Shown piece by piece: positions 12,029-21,471 of a stretch of 26,615 nt of DNA (within the stretch, counting starts at the first letter, position 1; every line of letters starts with the position of its first letter). The notes beneath the pieces are model-generated. The model saw only the letters and a list, made by a program, of their open reading frames with translations. It was not told the DNA's origin and did no database searches. Source of the DNA: a virus; the IMG/VR virus record IMGVR_UViG_3300000116_000178, positions 1 to 26,615 of that record; one strand, written 5' to 3'. A program made the translations under genes and the position numbers.

Positions 12029-12422
12029 TGTATCTCAAGTACGCTCAGTTTTAGACTCAATTATCGGAATTTATTTGGGTACTTATAACCTCCCAGATGG
12101 TTCTACATCCCCCGCCCTTTGGGTTCGGGGTTCGCAGCAAGTTCCCAAAGACTGGACAATCACAGGCACCGAATGTGTGCTTGATGAAGTACCAGAAGCC
12201 AGGAATGTGCCAACGATGTCTCAGGCGGTGTTCCTAAATTTATTTTGGAACGTAACTCTAACCAGCTACGACACAACCGTTACTTTAGAGAATCTTAGGT
12301 TGCTTCTTTTTCGGGCCTTCCCTGATATGGATACAGCGGTGTACACACCACAAACAGACATATCTTTTGAAAGTTTGAAAGTAACTATCCCCGACTACTC
12401 AATCCACACAGAGATAAGCTAA
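12021..12422 (+). CDS. putative tail terminator (lambda U-like)
   Basis: The 133-residue protein has an N-terminal helix (VSQVRSVLDSIIGIYLG), a strand-rich middle (FLNLFWNVTLTSYDTTVTLENLRLLLFRAFPD) and a C-terminal strand. That layout and its position directly before the tail tube gene match tail terminators, which cap the tube and join it to the head. No diagnostic motif is visible. AGGAG 8 nt upstream sets the start, and the end overlaps the tube gene as TAATG. Confidence 0.72.
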   Translation: MASVSQVRSVLDSIIGIYLGTYNLPDGSTSPALWVRGSQQVPKDWTITGTECVLDEVPEARNVPTMSQAVFLNLFWNVTLTSYDTTVTLENLRLLLFRAFPDMDTAVYTPQTDISFESLKVTIPDYSIHTEIS

Positions 12423-13009
12423 TGGCTCAACTCCCAGGATCCGCTTTTCTAAAAGGGCGCGATCGTCTTGTCCGAATTTCAGAAACAGGCGGAGCGCGTG
12501 CAGTGCCTGCAAGCCACGGTGATGGCGACCCTAATGCTGCATATACAATTCCCAGTGCTAATTATTCCAACACTAAATTACTCAAGGGCCTGACGGCAGC
12601 TGAGTACACTCCCTCACCGAATTCTCAGGAATTTTACCTGATGGGTGACGACGGTTTTCGTGACAGTGTTGGCGTCACAATGGCTGGTGAGCTGGCATGT
12701 ACGGCGTTTTTCATCCAAGGGCTTTCCAGTGGTGTGGCTAATACTGCCATTGATGACGCACTTGTCATGATCATGAAGTCTGAGAACGACCCTGATCGTG
12801 AGCTGTTTGTCGAAGTATTGACCTATTTAGGTCTTCAAGGTTCCGAGCACGTTTATAACACTCGCGCATTTAACTCCTGTATTACAGGCGTTTCTGAGAG
12901 TGCAGCTTCTGATGGAATTATCGAGTACTCCTGGTCCTTCCAATCACGCGGCCAGATTTTCGTTGGTGAGTTCAGTGCTGGCGTTACCAAGCTTGACGTT
13001 TACGCCTGA
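12422..13009 (+). CDS. major tail tube protein (lambda V-like)
   Basis: The 195-residue protein begins MAQLPGSAFLKGRDRLVRISE. It has a long beta-hairpin-like stretch (GVTMAGELACTAFFIQGL), a helix (VANTAIDDALVMIMKSENDPDRELFVEVLTYLG) and a C-terminal strand pair (GIIEYSWSFQSRGQIFVGEF), as in tail tube subunits that polymerise as hexamer rings. Size and position before the assembly chaperones and tape measure support the call. Expression is probably high, although it relies on coupling (TAATG) rather than a strong ribosome-binding site. Confidence 0.83.
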   Translation: MAQLPGSAFLKGRDRLVRISETGGARAVPASHGDGDPNAAYTIPSANYSNTKLLKGLTAAEYTPSPNSQEFYLMGDDGFRDSVGVTMAGELACTAFFIQGLSSGVANTAIDDALVMIMKSENDPDRELFVEVLTYLGLQGSEHVYNTRAFNSCITGVSESAASDGIIEYSWSFQSRGQIFVGEFSAGVTKLDVYA

Positions 13010-13239
13010 TGCAAGTTGATCTGCTTACCTCTGTGGATAAGCAGTCCTTCTTCATCAACTGCAGAGCTAAGGGAGAATTGCTTGAGGTGGGGGCGGTTTA
13101 TATCGCCCCTTCGTCGTCTTCTCCAATGAAACTTATATCTGAGGAAGGTGTTAGTTTGACTGTAGAAATCCCTGAAAATGCTTTCGACCAGATCTTAGAG
13201 ATGGTTGCGGCAGATACCTCTTTTTATATCATTTCATGA
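13009..13239 (+). CDS. small hypothetical protein between tail tube and chaperone genes (76 aa)
   Basis: The 76-residue product is coupled at both ends (TGATG and ATGA). It is beta-rich in its first two thirds (FFINCRAKGELLEVGAVYIAP, GVSLTVEIPENAF) and ends FYIIS. Lambda has no gene here, so this is an insertion relative to the lambda order. It might modify the tube or help chaperone assembly, but no family is recognised. Confidence 0.7.
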   Translation: MQVDLLTSVDKQSFFINCRAKGELLEVGAVYIAPSSSSPMKLISEEGVSLTVEIPENAFDQILEMVAADTSFYIIS

Positions 13240-13745
13240 GCAAGTATTCAAAAATTTTCTTCGGACAGAAGACGTATTACGACATTTTGCCTTTTCGATT
13301 CCCCATTTATAACGATTTAGTTGCCGGTGAGATCGAAGGTATAGAGGACTTAGCACGAAAGCAGGCGAAGAATACCTATGCGCTGCTCAAGATTGCTAAG
13401 GACGTAGCTCAGAAGCAAGAGATTCCTGTGCAGGAAGCCTTGGACGCCCTTAGTGACATCAATCAGAATCAGGATCTGTTGTATGAGTATGTAGAAGAGC
13501 TTGCTGATATCCAAACTCAGGGTCAATCTGTAAGCGAGCAGAAGATTCAGACTGTGACCTTGTTCATGCGTTACAGGGCCGAATTAAAGGAGCGCAACAA
13601 ATGGGTGCAGGTCTCTGATTGGGAGGAGGCAGATACAAGAGAAATGCCCCGCCGCCTGCTTGACGATATTTTTGATTTTGTGGATTGGGAACGGAACGGT
13701 TGGCCTAGTGACGAGGTTGACAGCGAGGATTCCGAGGGAAACTAA
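13236..13745 (+). CDS. tail assembly chaperone, short form (lambda G-like)
   Basis: The 169-residue, mostly helical, acidic protein lies between the tube and the tape measure. Its last codons (GAG GGA AAC TAA) contain a G GGA AAC slippery heptamer, so a fraction of ribosomes should shift to -1 and make a longer product using the next ORF, as for lambda G and G-T. The short form would coat the tape measure during tail assembly and not remain in the virion. The C-terminus is rich in Asp and Glu (WPSDEVDSEDSEGN). It starts by ATGA overlap with no Shine-Dalgarno sequence. Confidence 0.85.
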   Translation: MSKYSKIFFGQKTYYDILPFRFPIYNDLVAGEIEGIEDLARKQAKNTYALLKIAKDVAQKQEIPVQEALDALSDINQNQDLLYEYVEELADIQTQGQSVSEQKIQTVTLFMRYRAELKERNKWVQVSDWEEADTREMPRRLLDDIFDFVDWERNGWPSDEVDSEDSEGN

Positions 13746-13802
13746 CGATCGAGGTGGTCAACAAGCGTATTGCTTTTTTAAGGGAATATTTGGCCACCTC
13801 GG
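13736..13802 (+). promoter_or_regulatory. -1 programmed ribosomal frameshift signal
   Basis: The slippery heptamer GGGAAAC (13736-13742) is in the X-XXY-YYZ register of the G-like frame (G GGA AAC), directly before its TAA stop. After slippage the next codon is CTA at 13742. A stem of 10 contiguous pairs joins 13751-13760 to 13791-13800 (GAGGTGG with CCACCTC, a G-T wobble, C-G and A-T), extended by C13750-G13801 and a T13749-G13802 wobble. The spacer is 6-7 nt, which is optimal. A small AAGC/GCTT hairpin (13763-13766 with 13772-13775) may form in the 30-nt loop. Confidence 0.88.
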
Positions 13803-14179
13803 AGATTGATTTACTGATGCTGTATACAGAGTTCCGTGCGTCTCCAGCAGGCCAGGACATTGGTATGTATCAGTTTTCACGCATGCCATTGAAACTGGTG
13901 TATGAGATCGTGCGTTTGGCGGGTGACAGGGATAAGAAGTGGGCAAATATCTATTCAATTTCAATCGCACGTCTGAGTGGGATCGTTATTTCCGTTGCGA
14001 AAGGCTTTAGTGGAGATAAGTCTCCGATACCAGAGTTGGATCAGTTTTTGCCGTACCCATTGGATCAGGAGTCTAATGAATTCATTGCTGAAACCAAGTT
14101 GGTTTACAAGGGTTTATTGGCCAAACAAGTATTGCCACTTCACGTCATTGCAGCATTGAATAAAGTCATAACTGTTTAA
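13754..14179 (+). CDS. tail assembly chaperone, frameshift extension (lambda T-like)
   Basis: This ORF is in the -1 frame relative to the G-like gene and is open from 13721, so it is continuous with the slippery site. The annotated GTG at 13754 lies inside the predicted stem and lacks its own well-spaced ribosome-binding sequence, so it is probably expressed only as a fusion. That fusion would have 169 residues of G-like protein plus 145 encoded from 13742, about 314 in total. The T-like part is helical (LREYLATSEIDLLMLYTEF...LPLHVIAALNKVITV) and would bind tail tube subunits and bring them to the tape measure. Confidence 0.85.
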   Translation: MVNKRIAFLREYLATSEIDLLMLYTEFRASPAGQDIGMYQFSRMPLKLVYEIVRLAGDRDKKWANIYSISIARLSGIVISVAKGFSGDKSPIPELDQFLPYPLDQESNEFIAETKLVYKGLLAKQVLPLHVIAALNKVITV

Positions 14180-14211: not shown

Positions 14212-17200
14212 GTGGCTGTTCCGGCTAAGAATGTATATCAATTTACTGTTGATGTCGAAAATAGCAAGGCGCTTAAAAATCTTAGTGCTGTTGCGAAGGC
14301 AACTGATAAGGCTACTCAGCGAATTGAGAAGGATATAAAGAAGCAGATCAAGGCTAATTCCAAGAATGATCAATCAATAATTAAGACAAGAGCTGCTCTA
14401 TCCAAAGCAAGGGCGGAGTATAAGAAATATACAACAACAAAAAAAGCAGATGCATTAGCTGCTGATGCAGCGGCGCATAAAATGAAACAGCTCAATAAAG
14501 AGCTGTTCAATCAGACAGAAAAGCTACGAAAGGGCAAGCAGGCTATTAGGGGATATACAAGAGAACTTGATAAACTAGCCAATGCCGAAAGAAGAGCGGC
14601 AAATAGAGGGGGGACTCAATACAACCGTCCTATTGGACCTATTGGTCGCAATACTTATGCCAGCCAGGCTATGCCAGGCGGAGCAGGCTCCAGAGGCTTT
14701 GGTGGCCAACAAGGCAGGCGAGCTGGGTTTGCTCGCGGTGGCCGCAACATGATCTCGGCTGCTGGCGGTGCATTTGCTGGTGCTGGCGGCATCAGTGCTC
14801 TTGGAGCCGGTGCAGCTTCATTAGGTAGTGGGTTTGCCTTAAAATCTTCTATTCAGCAGGCGACGGCACTTCAGCAACAGGAATTAAAACTTCGAGTTCT
14901 ATCGAAGTCATATGGAGAATACGATGAGATTTTAAAAGAGGTTTCGCGTAATGCGGATATGTTCAACAAGTCGCAAAAGGACGCGACTACTGAGTTTGCA
15001 AATGTGTATGCAAGACTTCGCCCGCTGGGTATTGAGTTAAATGATATCAAGGGTGTTTATAAAGGTTTTAATGCCGTAGCAATTGCAAGTGGAGCCACTT
15101 CAGAGTCCACAAGAATTGCATTTATGCAACTTTCCCAAGCGTTGGGTAGTGGTCGTCTTGCTGGTGATGAATTCCGGTCCATCAGTGAGCAGATTCCTGG
15201 TGTTCTGATTCCAGTTGCCCGTGAAATGGGCGTCACGGTCGGTGAGCTTAAAAAACTAGGTGCTGAAGGAAAGATCACGTCCGATGTTCTGATCAACGCC
15301 TTGGGTAAGGGTTTTGAGGAAAACAAGGACAAAATCAAAGAACTTCTTAGAGAGTCCCCAACTGCAAAATTCACAGCATTAAGCAATGCACTTTCGGATA
15401 CTGCTGTCACCATTGGCGACTCATTGCTGCCTGTAGTACTGCCATTGGTAGAACTTGCAACTCGTTTGTTGGATACGATCGGGCGCTTACCTAACCCGGT
15501 TAAAGCCGTCTCCGGCGCTCTGTTCGGCTTAGGTCTGGCTTTCACTGCGGCGGCTGCAGGAGCTAAAGCTTTCGGCTTGTCACTGACAGGCGCGGCTGTA
15601 GCAGGCTTCGTCGCCCTGGCCGCCAAGATTGCACTAGCTGCAGCACCATTAATCGGTTTTGCAATGGTGATGGAGGAAAACATCCGTAAGAAGCAAGAAT
15701 TTGATGAAGCCCTGGCCAGCGATGAGCCAGAGATAATGAAAGACAAAATTGAAGAGTTAGGAGAGGCGCAATCTTCACTTAAGAAACAATTATCTAGCAC
15801 TAAAAAATTACCTTTTTACAGAGGCCAGGCTGGGGATATTGCTGATCTAAAAGGCAGAATCAAGGATTTGCAAGATGAGATCAAAGAACTTACAAAGCGC
15901 AGAACATTAATTATTGACATCGTTACCAAGGTCCATAAGATTGGTGGTATCGATTACAAAATGGATGGGCCTAAGGGTCGTTTAGTCCCTGTTAATCCGC
16001 CTGAAACTGTTTCTGAAAGACGAGAGCGCGAGGCTAAAGAAGCGGCGGAAAAATTAAAGGATAAGACAAAGAAAGGGCGCGGAGCTAATACAGCCGAACA
16101 AATCGCCAAGATTGAGTCGAATAATCGACGCCGCTTGAGTGAATTAGAAGCTACTAATCAAATAAACCGGATAAATAAAAGATATCAAATCGAAAACCGC
16201 CTTCAGCAAGAATCACACAGAATTCGTGAAGCTAATTTGCTTGGATCTGCCCGAGCAGCTTTAGAGATACAAAATGCTGAAAAAGAACAGAATGCTGCAA
16301 TTGATGCTCAGCTTAGAACACTTAACAATGCCATTACTGCCGCTGAGAGGCGTCTAGCAGCGGCTAAGCAGCAGTTTGTTGAGGCCGCGCCTGGTGCAGA
16401 CCGATCACGGGTTCAGGGCACTGTAAACAGCGCACAGGCCAGGCTCAACAGCGCTGTAGGCATCAGGGATGATTTTGCCGCTAACGCAGGCACAATGCGT
16501 AATAACGCATTCAATATTTCAGTTGCTCAATCGACCGAAGGGTTCCGTCAACGAGCTAAGGATGCGCAGCTTGAGGCACAGGCATTAAGAGAGCGTAATC
16601 GTCTGATGATGGAGGGCTTCTCTCCTGCTCAAGTTGAATTACAAATGCAGCTCACCGATATAGAGCGGGAACGAGTAGCTCAAATTAGTGCGCTGACAGT
16701 CGGCTCTGCCGGGTATGCGATTGCGTTGCAAGAGATCAATAGTAAAGCAGGCCTGGCAGCAGAGTCCGTCCGAAATTTGACTACAGCGCAGGAGGAGAAC
16801 AGTAATGCAATTACTGATTACATTGCCAATGCACAGGCTTATGTCGGTGACATTAAGGCTCGTATTGTTGATATTGCGTCAACAATTGAAGAAAGCATTT
16901 CCAGCGCTATTACAGGTCTTGTCAATGGCACGATGACTGCCACACAGGCATTCCATAGCTTCTTCAAGAGTGTTGGAGAAGCCTTTTTGAACATGGCCGC
17001 TCAAATGATCGCCAAGTTGATTGTGATTCAGCTATTAAAGTCGGCAATCGGAATGTTTGGTGGTTCATTCGGTGGTGGTGCAAATGTAGGTCAACAAGTT
17101 GATATGCCTAGTTCTGTAGGAATCGGAGCGGGGAATGGAATTATTCAGAACGGTGGAGGTCAAGGTTTTGGAACCTTTGGGCCTAACTTTGGTATTAGAC

Positions 17201-17502
17201 AGTTTGCCAAGGGTGGCATTGTCACTGGCCCAACCACCGCCTTAATTGGCGAAGGGGGTATGAATGAAGCTGTTGTTCCACTTCCTAATGGTCGGTCTAT
17301 ACCAGTCGATATGGGCAAAGGTGGTGGAGCAGGGGCTGTTCAAACCAATATCACAGTAAATGTTGATCAAGGCGGTCAAACAGATACAGAAACTTCCGGT
17401 GATAATGCCAATAAACTAGGTAAAGCCATCGACTCCGCTGTGAAGCGTGTAATTATGGATGAGCGCAGAGTTGGAGGACTACTTTACAATGGCCGACGTT
17501 AA
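14212..17502 (+). CDS. tape measure protein
   Basis: The 1096-residue protein sets tail length and is ejected through the tube. The start is GTG at 14212, with GAGG (14201-14204) seven nt upstream. In order: an N-terminal basic coiled coil (about 15-130), a Gly/Ala-rich linker (about 150-205), and a conserved tape-measure domain (about 215-400) with AFMQLSQALGSGRLAGDEF and SISEQIPGVLIPVAREMGV. Then come a hydrophobic segment (about 404-485: LLPVVLPLVELA, GLAFTAAAAGAKA, IALAAAPLIGFAMVM), a long coiled-coil zone (about 590-800), and a C-terminal part with FAKGGIVTGPTTALIGEGG and EAVVPL (near 997-1025), typical of lambda H-type proteins. It overlaps the next gene by 14 nt. Confidence 0.95.
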   Translation: MAVPAKNVYQFTVDVENSKALKNLSAVAKATDKATQRIEKDIKKQIKANSKNDQSIIKTRAALSKARAEYKKYTTTKKADALAADAAAHKMKQLNKELFNQTEKLRKGKQAIRGYTRELDKLANAERRAANRGGTQYNRPIGPIGRNTYASQAMPGGAGSRGFGGQQGRRAGFARGGRNMISAAGGAFAGAGGISALGAGAASLGSGFALKSSIQQATALQQQELKLRVLSKSYGEYDEILKEVSRNADMFNKSQKDATTEFANVYARLRPLGIELNDIKGVYKGFNAVAIASGATSESTRIAFMQLSQALGSGRLAGDEFRSISEQIPGVLIPVAREMGVTVGELKKLGAEGKITSDVLINALGKGFEENKDKIKELLRESPTAKFTALSNALSDTAVTIGDSLLPVVLPLVELATRLLDTIGRLPNPVKAVSGALFGLGLAFTAAAAGAKAFGLSLTGAAVAGFVALAAKIALAAAPLIGFAMVMEENIRKKQEFDEALASDEPEIMKDKIEELGEAQSSLKKQLSSTKKLPFYRGQAGDIADLKGRIKDLQDEIKELTKRRTLIIDIVTKVHKIGGIDYKMDGPKGRLVPVNPPETVSERREREAKEAAEKLKDKTKKGRGANTAEQIAKIESNNRRRLSELEATNQINRINKRYQIENRLQQESHRIREANLLGSARAALEIQNAEKEQNAAIDAQLRTLNNAITAAERRLAAAKQQFVEAAPGADRSRVQGTVNSAQARLNSAVGIRDDFAANAGTMRNNAFNISVAQSTEGFRQRAKDAQLEAQALRERNRLMMEGFSPAQVELQMQLTDIERERVAQISALTVGSAGYAIALQEINSKAGLAAESVRNLTTAQEENSNAITDYIANAQAYVGDIKARIVDIASTIEESISSAITGLVNGTMTATQAFHSFFKSVGEAFLNMAAQMIAKLIVIQLLKSAIGMFGGSFGGGANVGQQVDMPSSVGIGAGNGIIQNGGGQGFGTFGPNFGIRQFAKGGIVTGPTTALIGEGGMNEAVVPLPNGRSIPVDMGKGGGAGAVQTNITVNVDQGGQTDTETSGDNANKLGKAIDSAVKRVIMDERRVGGLLYNGRR

Positions 17503-18538: not shown

Positions 18539-18880
18539 ATGGCAAAACTTTTACATCGCCGTATTGCCCAGATCGCCCGCAAGGCAGTACCAGACGAGGC
18601 CTGTGGGTTTGTCGTTGACGGAAAACCCGTACAGGTTGCTAACCAAGCCGATGAACCTGAGGGAGGTTTTTTAATATCTGCTCAAGATTATTTAAAATAT
18701 AGTACGGATGTAATCTTCCATTCACATCCTGTAGGTGACCATAGTTTTAGTGAGCACGACATTGTGGTTTCCGCCAATATGGAGCTGACCTCTTATCTAT
18801 ATATTGTCGAAGCAGACAGGCTTGAGATTCTTAGTCCTGCTGGTCAGATCGAAAAGTTTGAAAAGGTTTTAAACAGATGA
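18539..18880 (+). CDS. JAMM/MPN peptidase-domain tail protein (lambda K N-domain-like)
   Basis: The 113-residue protein is a complete JAMM metallopeptidase domain: E20 in PDEACGF, then H61-S-H63, seven residues, S71, and D74 (HSHPVGDHSFSEHD), an exact E...HxH-x7-S-x2-D motif that binds zinc. Lambda gpK carries this domain plus a C-terminal NlpC/P60 cell-wall peptidase; here the NlpC/P60 part is absent and the ORF ends cleanly. It sits in the K position between L and I-J. It may act in tail tip assembly. The end overlaps the next start as ATGA. Confidence 0.9.
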   Translation: MAKLLHRRIAQIARKAVPDEACGFVVDGKPVQVANQADEPEGGFLISAQDYLKYSTDVIFHSHPVGDHSFSEHDIVVSANMELTSYLYIVEADRLEILSPAGQIEKFEKVLNR

Positions 18881-21471
18881 TGAAGATACGGCTAGAGGGT
18901 GTAGCAGGCAAACGCTTTGGTTATGAGCACGAATTAAATGTGCGTACACCGAATGAAGCGATCAGAGCTTTGTGCCATCTCTTGCCAGGTTTTCGTGCAT
19001 TCTTATCTTCAGCGCATGAATTCGGGGTTTATTTTCAACTTTTAAATGGCGAGGAGTCGGTTGGTTATGACCAGCTCTCGTTTGGATCATCCCAGATGAC
19101 ATTGGTCCCGGTCATCACGGGCTCATTTTTTGGCAGCAATTTCGGAAAAATTCTTATTGGCATTGCTCTTGTTGCGTTCGCCTTCACAGGTTTCGGCTTG
19201 ATGACAGTGGGAGCTGCTATCGCGCCTGCCATTGCATCTTTAGGTTTTGGTCTAATTTTCACAGGTGTTGCGGGGTTATTTGCCCCAGGAGTACCAGACC
19301 CATCTTCGACAGAGGAAGGTCGTCCAGCGGATGATGCTATTACAAATGCGGCATCAGCCACAGCAGCCGATGGCACCCCAGTCCCGGCAGTTTATGGGGA
19401 AACGCTTGTAACAGGCATGCCAGTTGTCAGCTCATATATTCAGGACGGGGATGATTTTAATGAGCCCAAGGGGTTTTGGATGGCAGTTGTGTCTGAGGGG
19501 GAGATTGATGGATTTGCTGGTTTACAGGATGATAATTTGTTCTTCAATGGATTGAAGGCGGCAGCAGCGGGAGTAGATAATATTCAGTTCACTAATGGTT
19601 CACAAACTTCAGCAACGTCTTTAAATCTGCTTCAAAATCAAGGTTTTCACCTTCGTATTGGGGCATCCTTTCCTAAAGCCGGTGGTAGTTATGAAGAGCG
19701 TATTAGCGAGTCAGAGTCACCTAGTCCAACAGAAATAAGATCCCTAAATAATCCGTATGCCGACAAGCTACGGGTACGTATTCAGGAAGGGCCCTGCTAT
19801 CAGACAAAGACTCGCAGTGTTGTTAGCAACGGCAAAACTAATACAAACTATAGAGACTATACAGATGATAGTGACGCGGGGGGTGGAGATAATCCGCTTG
19901 CATATCAAATTACAGCCTTCGCTAATGGTGCGCTTTTTTATCAAAAAATAGTTGAACGTAATAAAAATTTAGCAAACACGGTAGCTGTTCATGAGATTGA
20001 CATTACTGGAGTGCAGCACCCGGTATCAGTAAAAGTTCAGAGAACTGATCGCGGTGATGCTAGACCGTTAGTTGTCCAAAAAGGTGGCAACAGCACCACG
20101 CAATTCTCATGGACGAAGGGTGATTTCACCTGGCTATCGATGGAAGTTTTATGGAACGAGAAACTCGTTTATCCCTTTACTTCTATGCTCGCGTGTAGTT
20201 TTCCTGCAGGAGCCACAACTACCCTCCCCTCCATAACGGCAAAGATCAGAGGTAGAAAGGTTCCTGTTCTTAGCAGCGACCTTAGTGTCAGTTATCAGTA
20301 TTCGCGTAATCCTGCTTGTGTCGTGCTGGATCTGCTGACTAACGCCCGCTATGGAGCCGGTCACCGCATCTTCACCACAAATGCTCCTTTAAATCAAGTC
20401 GTTCATCAGCCGGGCATACGTTTTACGGATATTGATTTAGCATCTTTCTATAAAGCACAGCAATATTGCGATGAGCATCAAATCACATTTGATGCAACTA
20501 TCGCCGGGGATGCGGATTCTATTGAACTCTTACGTAGTATTACTTCTACATTTCAAGGGCAACTAATTTATCTTGGTGGGGCTATTACTGTTGTTATTGA
20601 TGATCAAGTGAAATCAAGTCAGATTCAAGACTATAGACTTTTTACAGAAGCAAATGTAATTCAATCATCCAGTGGGGATAGCATCGAAACGCCTGCCTTT
20701 GTTTATGAGGGTACTGCGCGTAAGGCCAGGAGCACTGCGGTACAGGTTAGTTATATCGACAGTGCAAATTTTTACAAGGAAGCCAAAGTTTTAGTTGAAG
20801 ACCGAGATGCAATGCAAAAATATGGTTACAACCTTAAAAAAATTAGAGCCCTCGGCTGCACTGATAGGAACCTAGCTAAACGCCTAGGTCGTTATACATT
20901 GTCAACTAATATACGCTCAACTGAGACAGTTATGTTCAGTGTTGGCCCAGAGGGGGCGATGTTGATTCCTGGGGATGTCTGCCTTATTGGGGATCCACTA
21001 AAAACCCGAATCGAATCAGGTGGCCGCATTGTTTCCGCTTCTTCTAATCAGCTTGTTGTTGACAGGCAGCTAACCACAGGAGTCGACTACGGCACAGGCA
21101 GTTGGAAGTTGTATACATACACTAATGCCGGTATAGCGCAATGTAATACTGTTTCTTCTGTAGCTGGATTTAGCATTAACTTACAGGGTTCATTTTTGTC
21201 GCTTCCTACTTCAAATATGTTGTGGATTCTTGTGAATGAAGGCTCAAATAATAATTCTTTGCATCAATTCAATAGGTATCGCATTCAAAAAATAAGTGAA
21301 GATGCAGATGGTACTTTTAGCGTTATAGGTATTACATACGATCATGCCAAGTATGATTATGTTAATAAGCAACAACTAGATTACGGGGGAACGCACTTTT
21401 TAAGTGGTGGCCGAAATCCTGCATTACGAGCCGATGGTATCAGTTTTAAAATACGCAACCCGTCACCCTAA
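18877..21471 (+). CDS. tail tip protein, lambda I-J fusion
   Basis: The 864-residue protein begins with a lambda gpI-like module (1 to about 145): MMKIRLEGVAGKRFG, TPNEAIRALCHLLPGFRAFL, LVPVITGS, then a hydrophobic Gly/Ala stretch (about 92-143). In lambda this is a separate gene. A gpJ-like central tip part follows: GTPVPAVYGETLVTGMPVVSS (near 167-187), KIRGRKVPVL (near 456), NPACVVLDLLTNARYGAG, IDLASFYKAQQYCDE, and a C-terminal hub region with EDADGTFSVIGITYDHAKYDYV. The protein is shorter than lambda J because the FN3 and fibre regions are encoded by following genes. It forms the central hub that closes the tail and contacts the receptor-binding parts. Confidence 0.9.
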   Translation: MMKIRLEGVAGKRFGYEHELNVRTPNEAIRALCHLLPGFRAFLSSAHEFGVYFQLLNGEESVGYDQLSFGSSQMTLVPVITGSFFGSNFGKILIGIALVAFAFTGFGLMTVGAAIAPAIASLGFGLIFTGVAGLFAPGVPDPSSTEEGRPADDAITNAASATAADGTPVPAVYGETLVTGMPVVSSYIQDGDDFNEPKGFWMAVVSEGEIDGFAGLQDDNLFFNGLKAAAAGVDNIQFTNGSQTSATSLNLLQNQGFHLRIGASFPKAGGSYEERISESESPSPTEIRSLNNPYADKLRVRIQEGPCYQTKTRSVVSNGKTNTNYRDYTDDSDAGGGDNPLAYQITAFANGALFYQKIVERNKNLANTVAVHEIDITGVQHPVSVKVQRTDRGDARPLVVQKGGNSTTQFSWTKGDFTWLSMEVLWNEKLVYPFTSMLACSFPAGATTTLPSITAKIRGRKVPVLSSDLSVSYQYSRNPACVVLDLLTNARYGAGHRIFTTNAPLNQVVHQPGIRFTDIDLASFYKAQQYCDEHQITFDATIAGDADSIELLRSITSTFQGQLIYLGGAITVVIDDQVKSSQIQDYRLFTEANVIQSSSGDSIETPAFVYEGTARKARSTAVQVSYIDSANFYKEAKVLVEDRDAMQKYGYNLKKIRALGCTDRNLAKRLGRYTLSTNIRSTETVMFSVGPEGAMLIPGDVCLIGDPLKTRIESGGRIVSASSNQLVVDRQLTTGVDYGTGSWKLYTYTNAGIAQCNTVSSVAGFSINLQGSFLSLPTSNMLWILVNEGSNNNSLHQFNRYRIQKISEDADGTFSVIGITYDHAKYDYVNKQQLDYGGTHFLSGGRNPALRADGISFKIRNPSP

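Follow-up and report, generated by a model that had tools for sequence, protein, structure and literature searches.

Results

The window analysed here, the whole stretch of 26,615 bases from an IMG/VR virus record, displays a lambda-like gene order with terminase, portal, major head protein, tape measure and minor tail proteins. Two overlapping reading frames, called here G-like and T-like, immediately precede the tape measure gene, which was confirmed by Pfam (TMP_3, 6e-37) and by many PHROGs tape measure families. Further upstream, an ORF of 195 aa, for which no Pfam or PHROGs family was matched, sits where the major tail protein would be expected and has a homologue in Synechococcus phage S-CBS4. 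The relevant features are the following:

12422..13009, + strand: 195-aa ORF, candidate major tail protein judging from its location alone
13236..13745, + strand: 169-aa G-like ORF whose zero-frame product has SEGN as its last residues; relatives 58-99% identical
13736..13742, + strand: putative slippery heptamer G_GGA_AAC, in register with the zero frame; all 46 relatives have it right before the stop
13742..14179, + strand: T-like frame, 145 codons, -1 entry; own start codon not conserved
13743..13745, + strand: zero-frame stop TAA, contiguous with the heptamer; relatives have TAA or TGA
13743..13749, + strand: 7-nt spacer from heptamer to stem
13750..13761, + strand: putative stimulatory stem, 5' arm (fold and covariation)
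about 13767..13789, + strand: possible inner second hairpin stacked on the main stem (helix 2), weakly suggested by the fold
13790..13801, + strand: putative stimulatory stem, 3' arm (fold and covariation)
14212..17502, + strand: tape measure protein

The 3' end of the G-like ORF reads GAG GGA AAC TAA, the heptamer forming its last two sense codons in the X_XXY_YYZ register. The -1 frame, which re-reads the C at 13742, continues as CTA ACG ATC GAG GTG GTC AAC AAG (LTIEVVNK) and stays open for 145 codons, up to the stop at 14177-14179. The predicted G-T fusion would have 169+145 = 314 residues, with a junction peptide of the SEGNLTIEVVNK type. An earlier note on this DNA, made from the letters alone, had described here a frameshift cassette with GGGAAAC in register at the end of G, a -1 frame open straight into T, a fusion of about 314 residues and a stem of 11-12 pairs beginning 6-7 nt downstream. 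This anatomy is borne out on every point, the stem comprising 12 pairs (13750-13761 with 13790-13801, including one G-U at 13758-13793) after a spacer of 7 nt, a distance that lies within the range of about 5-9 nt typical of stimulatory structures.

The heptamer alone is uninformative, since GGGAAAC occurs twice in the window for three occurrences expected and since 37 in-register XXXYYYZ sites are found in its 7840 codon positions. The unusual part is the combination of a heptamer directly before a stop, an open -1 frame and a stem. The strongest support for the putative signal is the conservation of the heptamer across 46 relatives. When viral contigs were searched with G, with T and with alignments of each, relatives were retrieved whose G identity ranges from 39% to 99%; all 46 viral contigs in which G is at least 58% identical carry GGGAAAC directly before TAA or TGA, with T in the open -1 frame. 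Conservation in related phages had been proposed in the earlier note as a check and was thus found, while relatives devoid of heptamer and stem that keep two ORFs with clear starts were looked for and not encountered. No relatives were found in genome contigs of bacteria and archaea. Scanning the viral contig collection for the DNA pattern (heptamer plus stem) gave 30 contigs, of which 29 already belonged to the family by G and one by T.

Amino-acid constraint does not account for the invariance of the heptamer, because GGA represents 16% of Gly codons in the family G genes (AAC being 67% of Asn codons), because the preceding codon always ends in G, whether it encodes Glu, Gln or Ser, and because this Ser codon is TCG in four of four cases, TCG making up 6% of Ser codons.

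The window contains one other in-register heptamer within two codons of a stop, TTTAAAC at 18868-18874 (ORF 18539-18880), where the -1 frame is also open into the next ORF. Six relatives extend over that gene end and all of them lack the site; it is therefore attributed to chance and serves as a negative control.

T could also be translated alone, from GTG 13754 or from another internal start coupled to the end of G, the heptamer being incidental. Gene finders would indeed choose GTG 13754, and starts coupled to termination are frequent in the tail operons of phages. However, this codon lies inside the stem and is kept in only 10 of 31 sequences; since other codons replace it in the remaining 21, it is probably not a start, as had been suspected. 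No start position is common to more than 11 of the 31 sequences, and five of them (L041, L046, L051, L052 and L062) have no ATG, GTG or TTG within the first 45 T codons. Moreover, conservation of T extends to its residues 1, 2 and 4, ahead of any start. Given conserved residues from codon 1 and no conserved start, T, which is open from the heptamer in all 46 relatives, is best read as a -1 extension of G. An independent start, which would in addition leave the invariant GGGAAAC unexplained, appears very improbable to us.

The 80-nt RNA downstream of the heptamer folds at -25.3 kcal/mol (z -3.76), and 1 of 200 shuffles is as low. The stem region was aligned gap-free in 35 distinct sequences, across which 90% of stem cells are paired (21-47% in slid controls). 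The stem covaries beyond coding constraint. Its covariation is 0.344 versus 0.133 in shuffled alignments, a value reached by 0 of 500 shuffles. Since both arms are coding, a second control exchanged codons only between sequences that share the residue concerned. Pairing at the four pairs that join two third codon positions is 70% (78% at most) in 1000 such codon-preserving shuffles and 98% in the real alignment, it being understood that all these shuffle counts overstate independence because related sequences share ancestry. The pair changes are dispersed over several branches of the G tree, with 6, 8 and 4 parsimony changes for the three main covarying pairs. All four Watson-Crick types are seen at pair 13756-13795 (GC, AU, UA and CG, together with GU and UG) and at pair 13759-13792 (CG, UA, GC and AU). 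In five sequences added after the stem had been defined, 9-11 of the 12 pairs form. The compensatory changes for which the earlier note had asked are therefore present.

Covariation proves structure and not function, and the stem could serve some other purpose in the RNA, such as transcript processing or a block to translation, its covariation being unrelated to frameshifting. Against this, the 7-nt spacing is fixed relative to the invariant in-register heptamer. The stem is not terminator-like, as it has no U tract and lies inside the T frame, and no Rfam family matches. Two divergent relatives, L091 and L062, keep a slippery heptamer with different structures just 3' of it, as a frameshift stimulator would. 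We consider such another job scarcely plausible and regard the stem as the probable stimulator of a -1 shift.

Other RNA elements were considered around the junction. The earlier note had mentioned a large loop that may hold a second hairpin: the hairpin can be drawn, but its support is no better than coding constraint (76% paired, 70 of 1000 amino-acid-preserving shuffles being at least as high). Pairing of the loop with downstream sequence gave no conserved helix for a pseudoknot, which is an optional and not a defining trait of such signals. As to an upstream Shine-Dalgarno stimulator, GAGGA-like motifs amount to 4.71 versus 4.59 under synonymous recoding (109/300), i.e. Shine-Dalgarno-like sequence is no more abundant than acidic codons yield by chance. 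Elsewhere, positions 13066-13130, within an ORF of 76 aa just 5' of G, are among the strongest 60-nt RNA folds of the window (-28.3 kcal/mol).

Towards the limits of the family, both parts of the signal change. L062 (G 58% identical) keeps GGGAAAC followed by TGA and its downstream fold differs. L091 falls outside the 46 relatives: its G is 61% identical to that of L062, the most divergent member, yet its heptamer is GGGAAAG, that of lambda, placed ten bases before the G stop, one codon further out. In L098, whose identity to L062 is 39%, GGGAAAC lies 46 nt upstream of the stop. S-CBS4 (HQ698895) encodes homologues of G (31% identity) and T (hhalign E 4e-7), with an in-register A_AAA_AAA at the junction, T in the -1 frame and the pair located 5' of the tape measure gene; no notable stem was detected downstream of this A run (z +1.6). 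The -1 G-to-T arrangement is thus older than its signal, since heptamer and stem both change in these outgroups.

The replacement structures have their own features. In L062 (2495-2580), an unrelated fold GAGGACG...CGTCCTC encloses a nested GC-rich hairpin. In L091 (2001-2600), a different long stem is found, GATATCGAT...ATCGATATC, both signal parts being naturally exchanged.

We found no credible family for G in Pfam, PHROGs and solved structures, nor for T in Pfam and PHROGs. Predicted folds are of modest confidence (pLDDT 61 for the G model and 71 for the T model), and Foldseek returned only weak matches, none convincing, a few of them labelled tail assembly chaperone with E about 1.

Discussion

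Taken together, the register, the open frame, the stem, the conservation and the covariation support the reading as a -1 frameshift cassette. Very probably, a working signal for programmed -1 ribosomal frameshifting links the two tail-assembly-chaperone-like genes of this lambda-like tail module. We infer that the shift occurs, its efficiency and the role of the proteins; what was directly established is the anatomy of the junction, its frames, their conservation, the covariation of the stem, the lack of a conserved T start and the adjacency of the tape measure gene.

According to the proposed mechanism, most ribosomes would read G_GGA_AAC_TAA and terminate, giving the 169-residue G-like protein. 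A minority would pause at the stem seven bases downstream, where both tRNAs would slip back by one base, from GGA to GGG and from AAC to AAA. Slipped ribosomes would then continue with CTA-ACG... to produce the 314-residue G-T fusion. If the proteins work as in lambda, it would be G that binds the tape measure protein, the tail tube protein being recruited through the T part of the fusion.

Transcriptional slippage, which also gives shifted products from repeats and could operate on the run of seven A in S-CBS4, deserves next to no credit as the source of the fusion here, because no run in GGGAAAC is longer than three and because a stem conserved at a spacing of 7 nt is in keeping with slippage of ribosomes.

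The layout of this putative ribosomal signal echoes that of E. coli dnaX, in which A_AAA_AAG is likewise followed directly by a stop and then by a stem-loop. Unlike the present site, dnaX is a cellular gene, its shift yields a short truncated product and it uses an upstream Shine-Dalgarno stimulator. Within phages, the junction resembles lambda G/GT: a pair of overlapping ORFs precedes the tape measure gene, T lies in the -1 frame, and an in-register X_XXY_YYZ near the end of G goes with a minor long fusion, predicted in the present case (PMC5009743). It differs from lambda by GGGAAAC with an immediate stop, by the long conserved downstream stem and by the proteins themselves, for which no sequence match to known tail assembly chaperone families was detected in Pfam and PHROGs. 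G-T recoding next to the tape measure gene is a mark of lambda-type tail assembly chaperones (PMC5009743). The label of tail chaperone used in the earlier note thus fits the gene order and the recoding but finds no counterpart among known chaperone families, so that the chaperone role of G and T is a probable one, deduced from these two traits. The same note had opposed a heptamer ending in C to the GGGAAAG of lambda. This C is present; however, it is not new at a g-t junction, as the haloarchaeal tailed virus HCTV-1 has the same G_GGA_AAC there (PMC5009743). HCTV-1 is an archaeal virus, and the likeness noted here is that of heptamer and junction. Conversely, S-CBS4 shares homologous G and T, the -1 frame and the position upstream of the tape measure gene, but its A_AAA_AAA stands well before the G stop and is not followed by a notable stem.

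How often the shift would occur is uncertain, because AAC is a poorer A-site shift codon than AAG in E. coli, which may not be the host: A_AAA_AAC is less efficient there than A_AAA_AAG (PMC5009743). The nearest cultured phage, S-CBS4, is a cyanophage. One could imagine that an unannotated marine siphophage chaperone family, probably of cyanophages, has settled on the 'mammalian-type' G_GGA_AAC with a long simple stem because the host Asn tRNA reads AAC in a shift-prone manner, unlike that of E. coli. Since close outgroups use GGGAAAG or an A run, the heptamer switch could match the state of host tRNA. We nevertheless regard this explanation as speculative and rather unlikely.

A literature search returned no description of a tail frameshift for the group to which this marine phage fragment belongs. 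The mechanism is classic and the heptamer is known from HCTV-1; what is new is the protein family together with very clean evidence for the signal. The junction thereby adds a well supported example to this classic kind of recoding, one with unusually clean covariation and with proteins unknown to the family libraries. It also offers a homology-independent route to finding the tail assembly chaperones of uncultured marine phages, and illustrates that a -1 G-to-T arrangement can outlast its own signal.

Finally, the comparison points to a probable annotation error in S-CBS4, where gp032 and gp033 are annotated as hypothetical proteins only. Both look like truncated calls: the G ORF would start upstream at MSKYS and T would be its -1 extension. 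In HQ698895.1, G covers 19779-20324, the A7 run 20276-20282 and the T frame 20282-20749.
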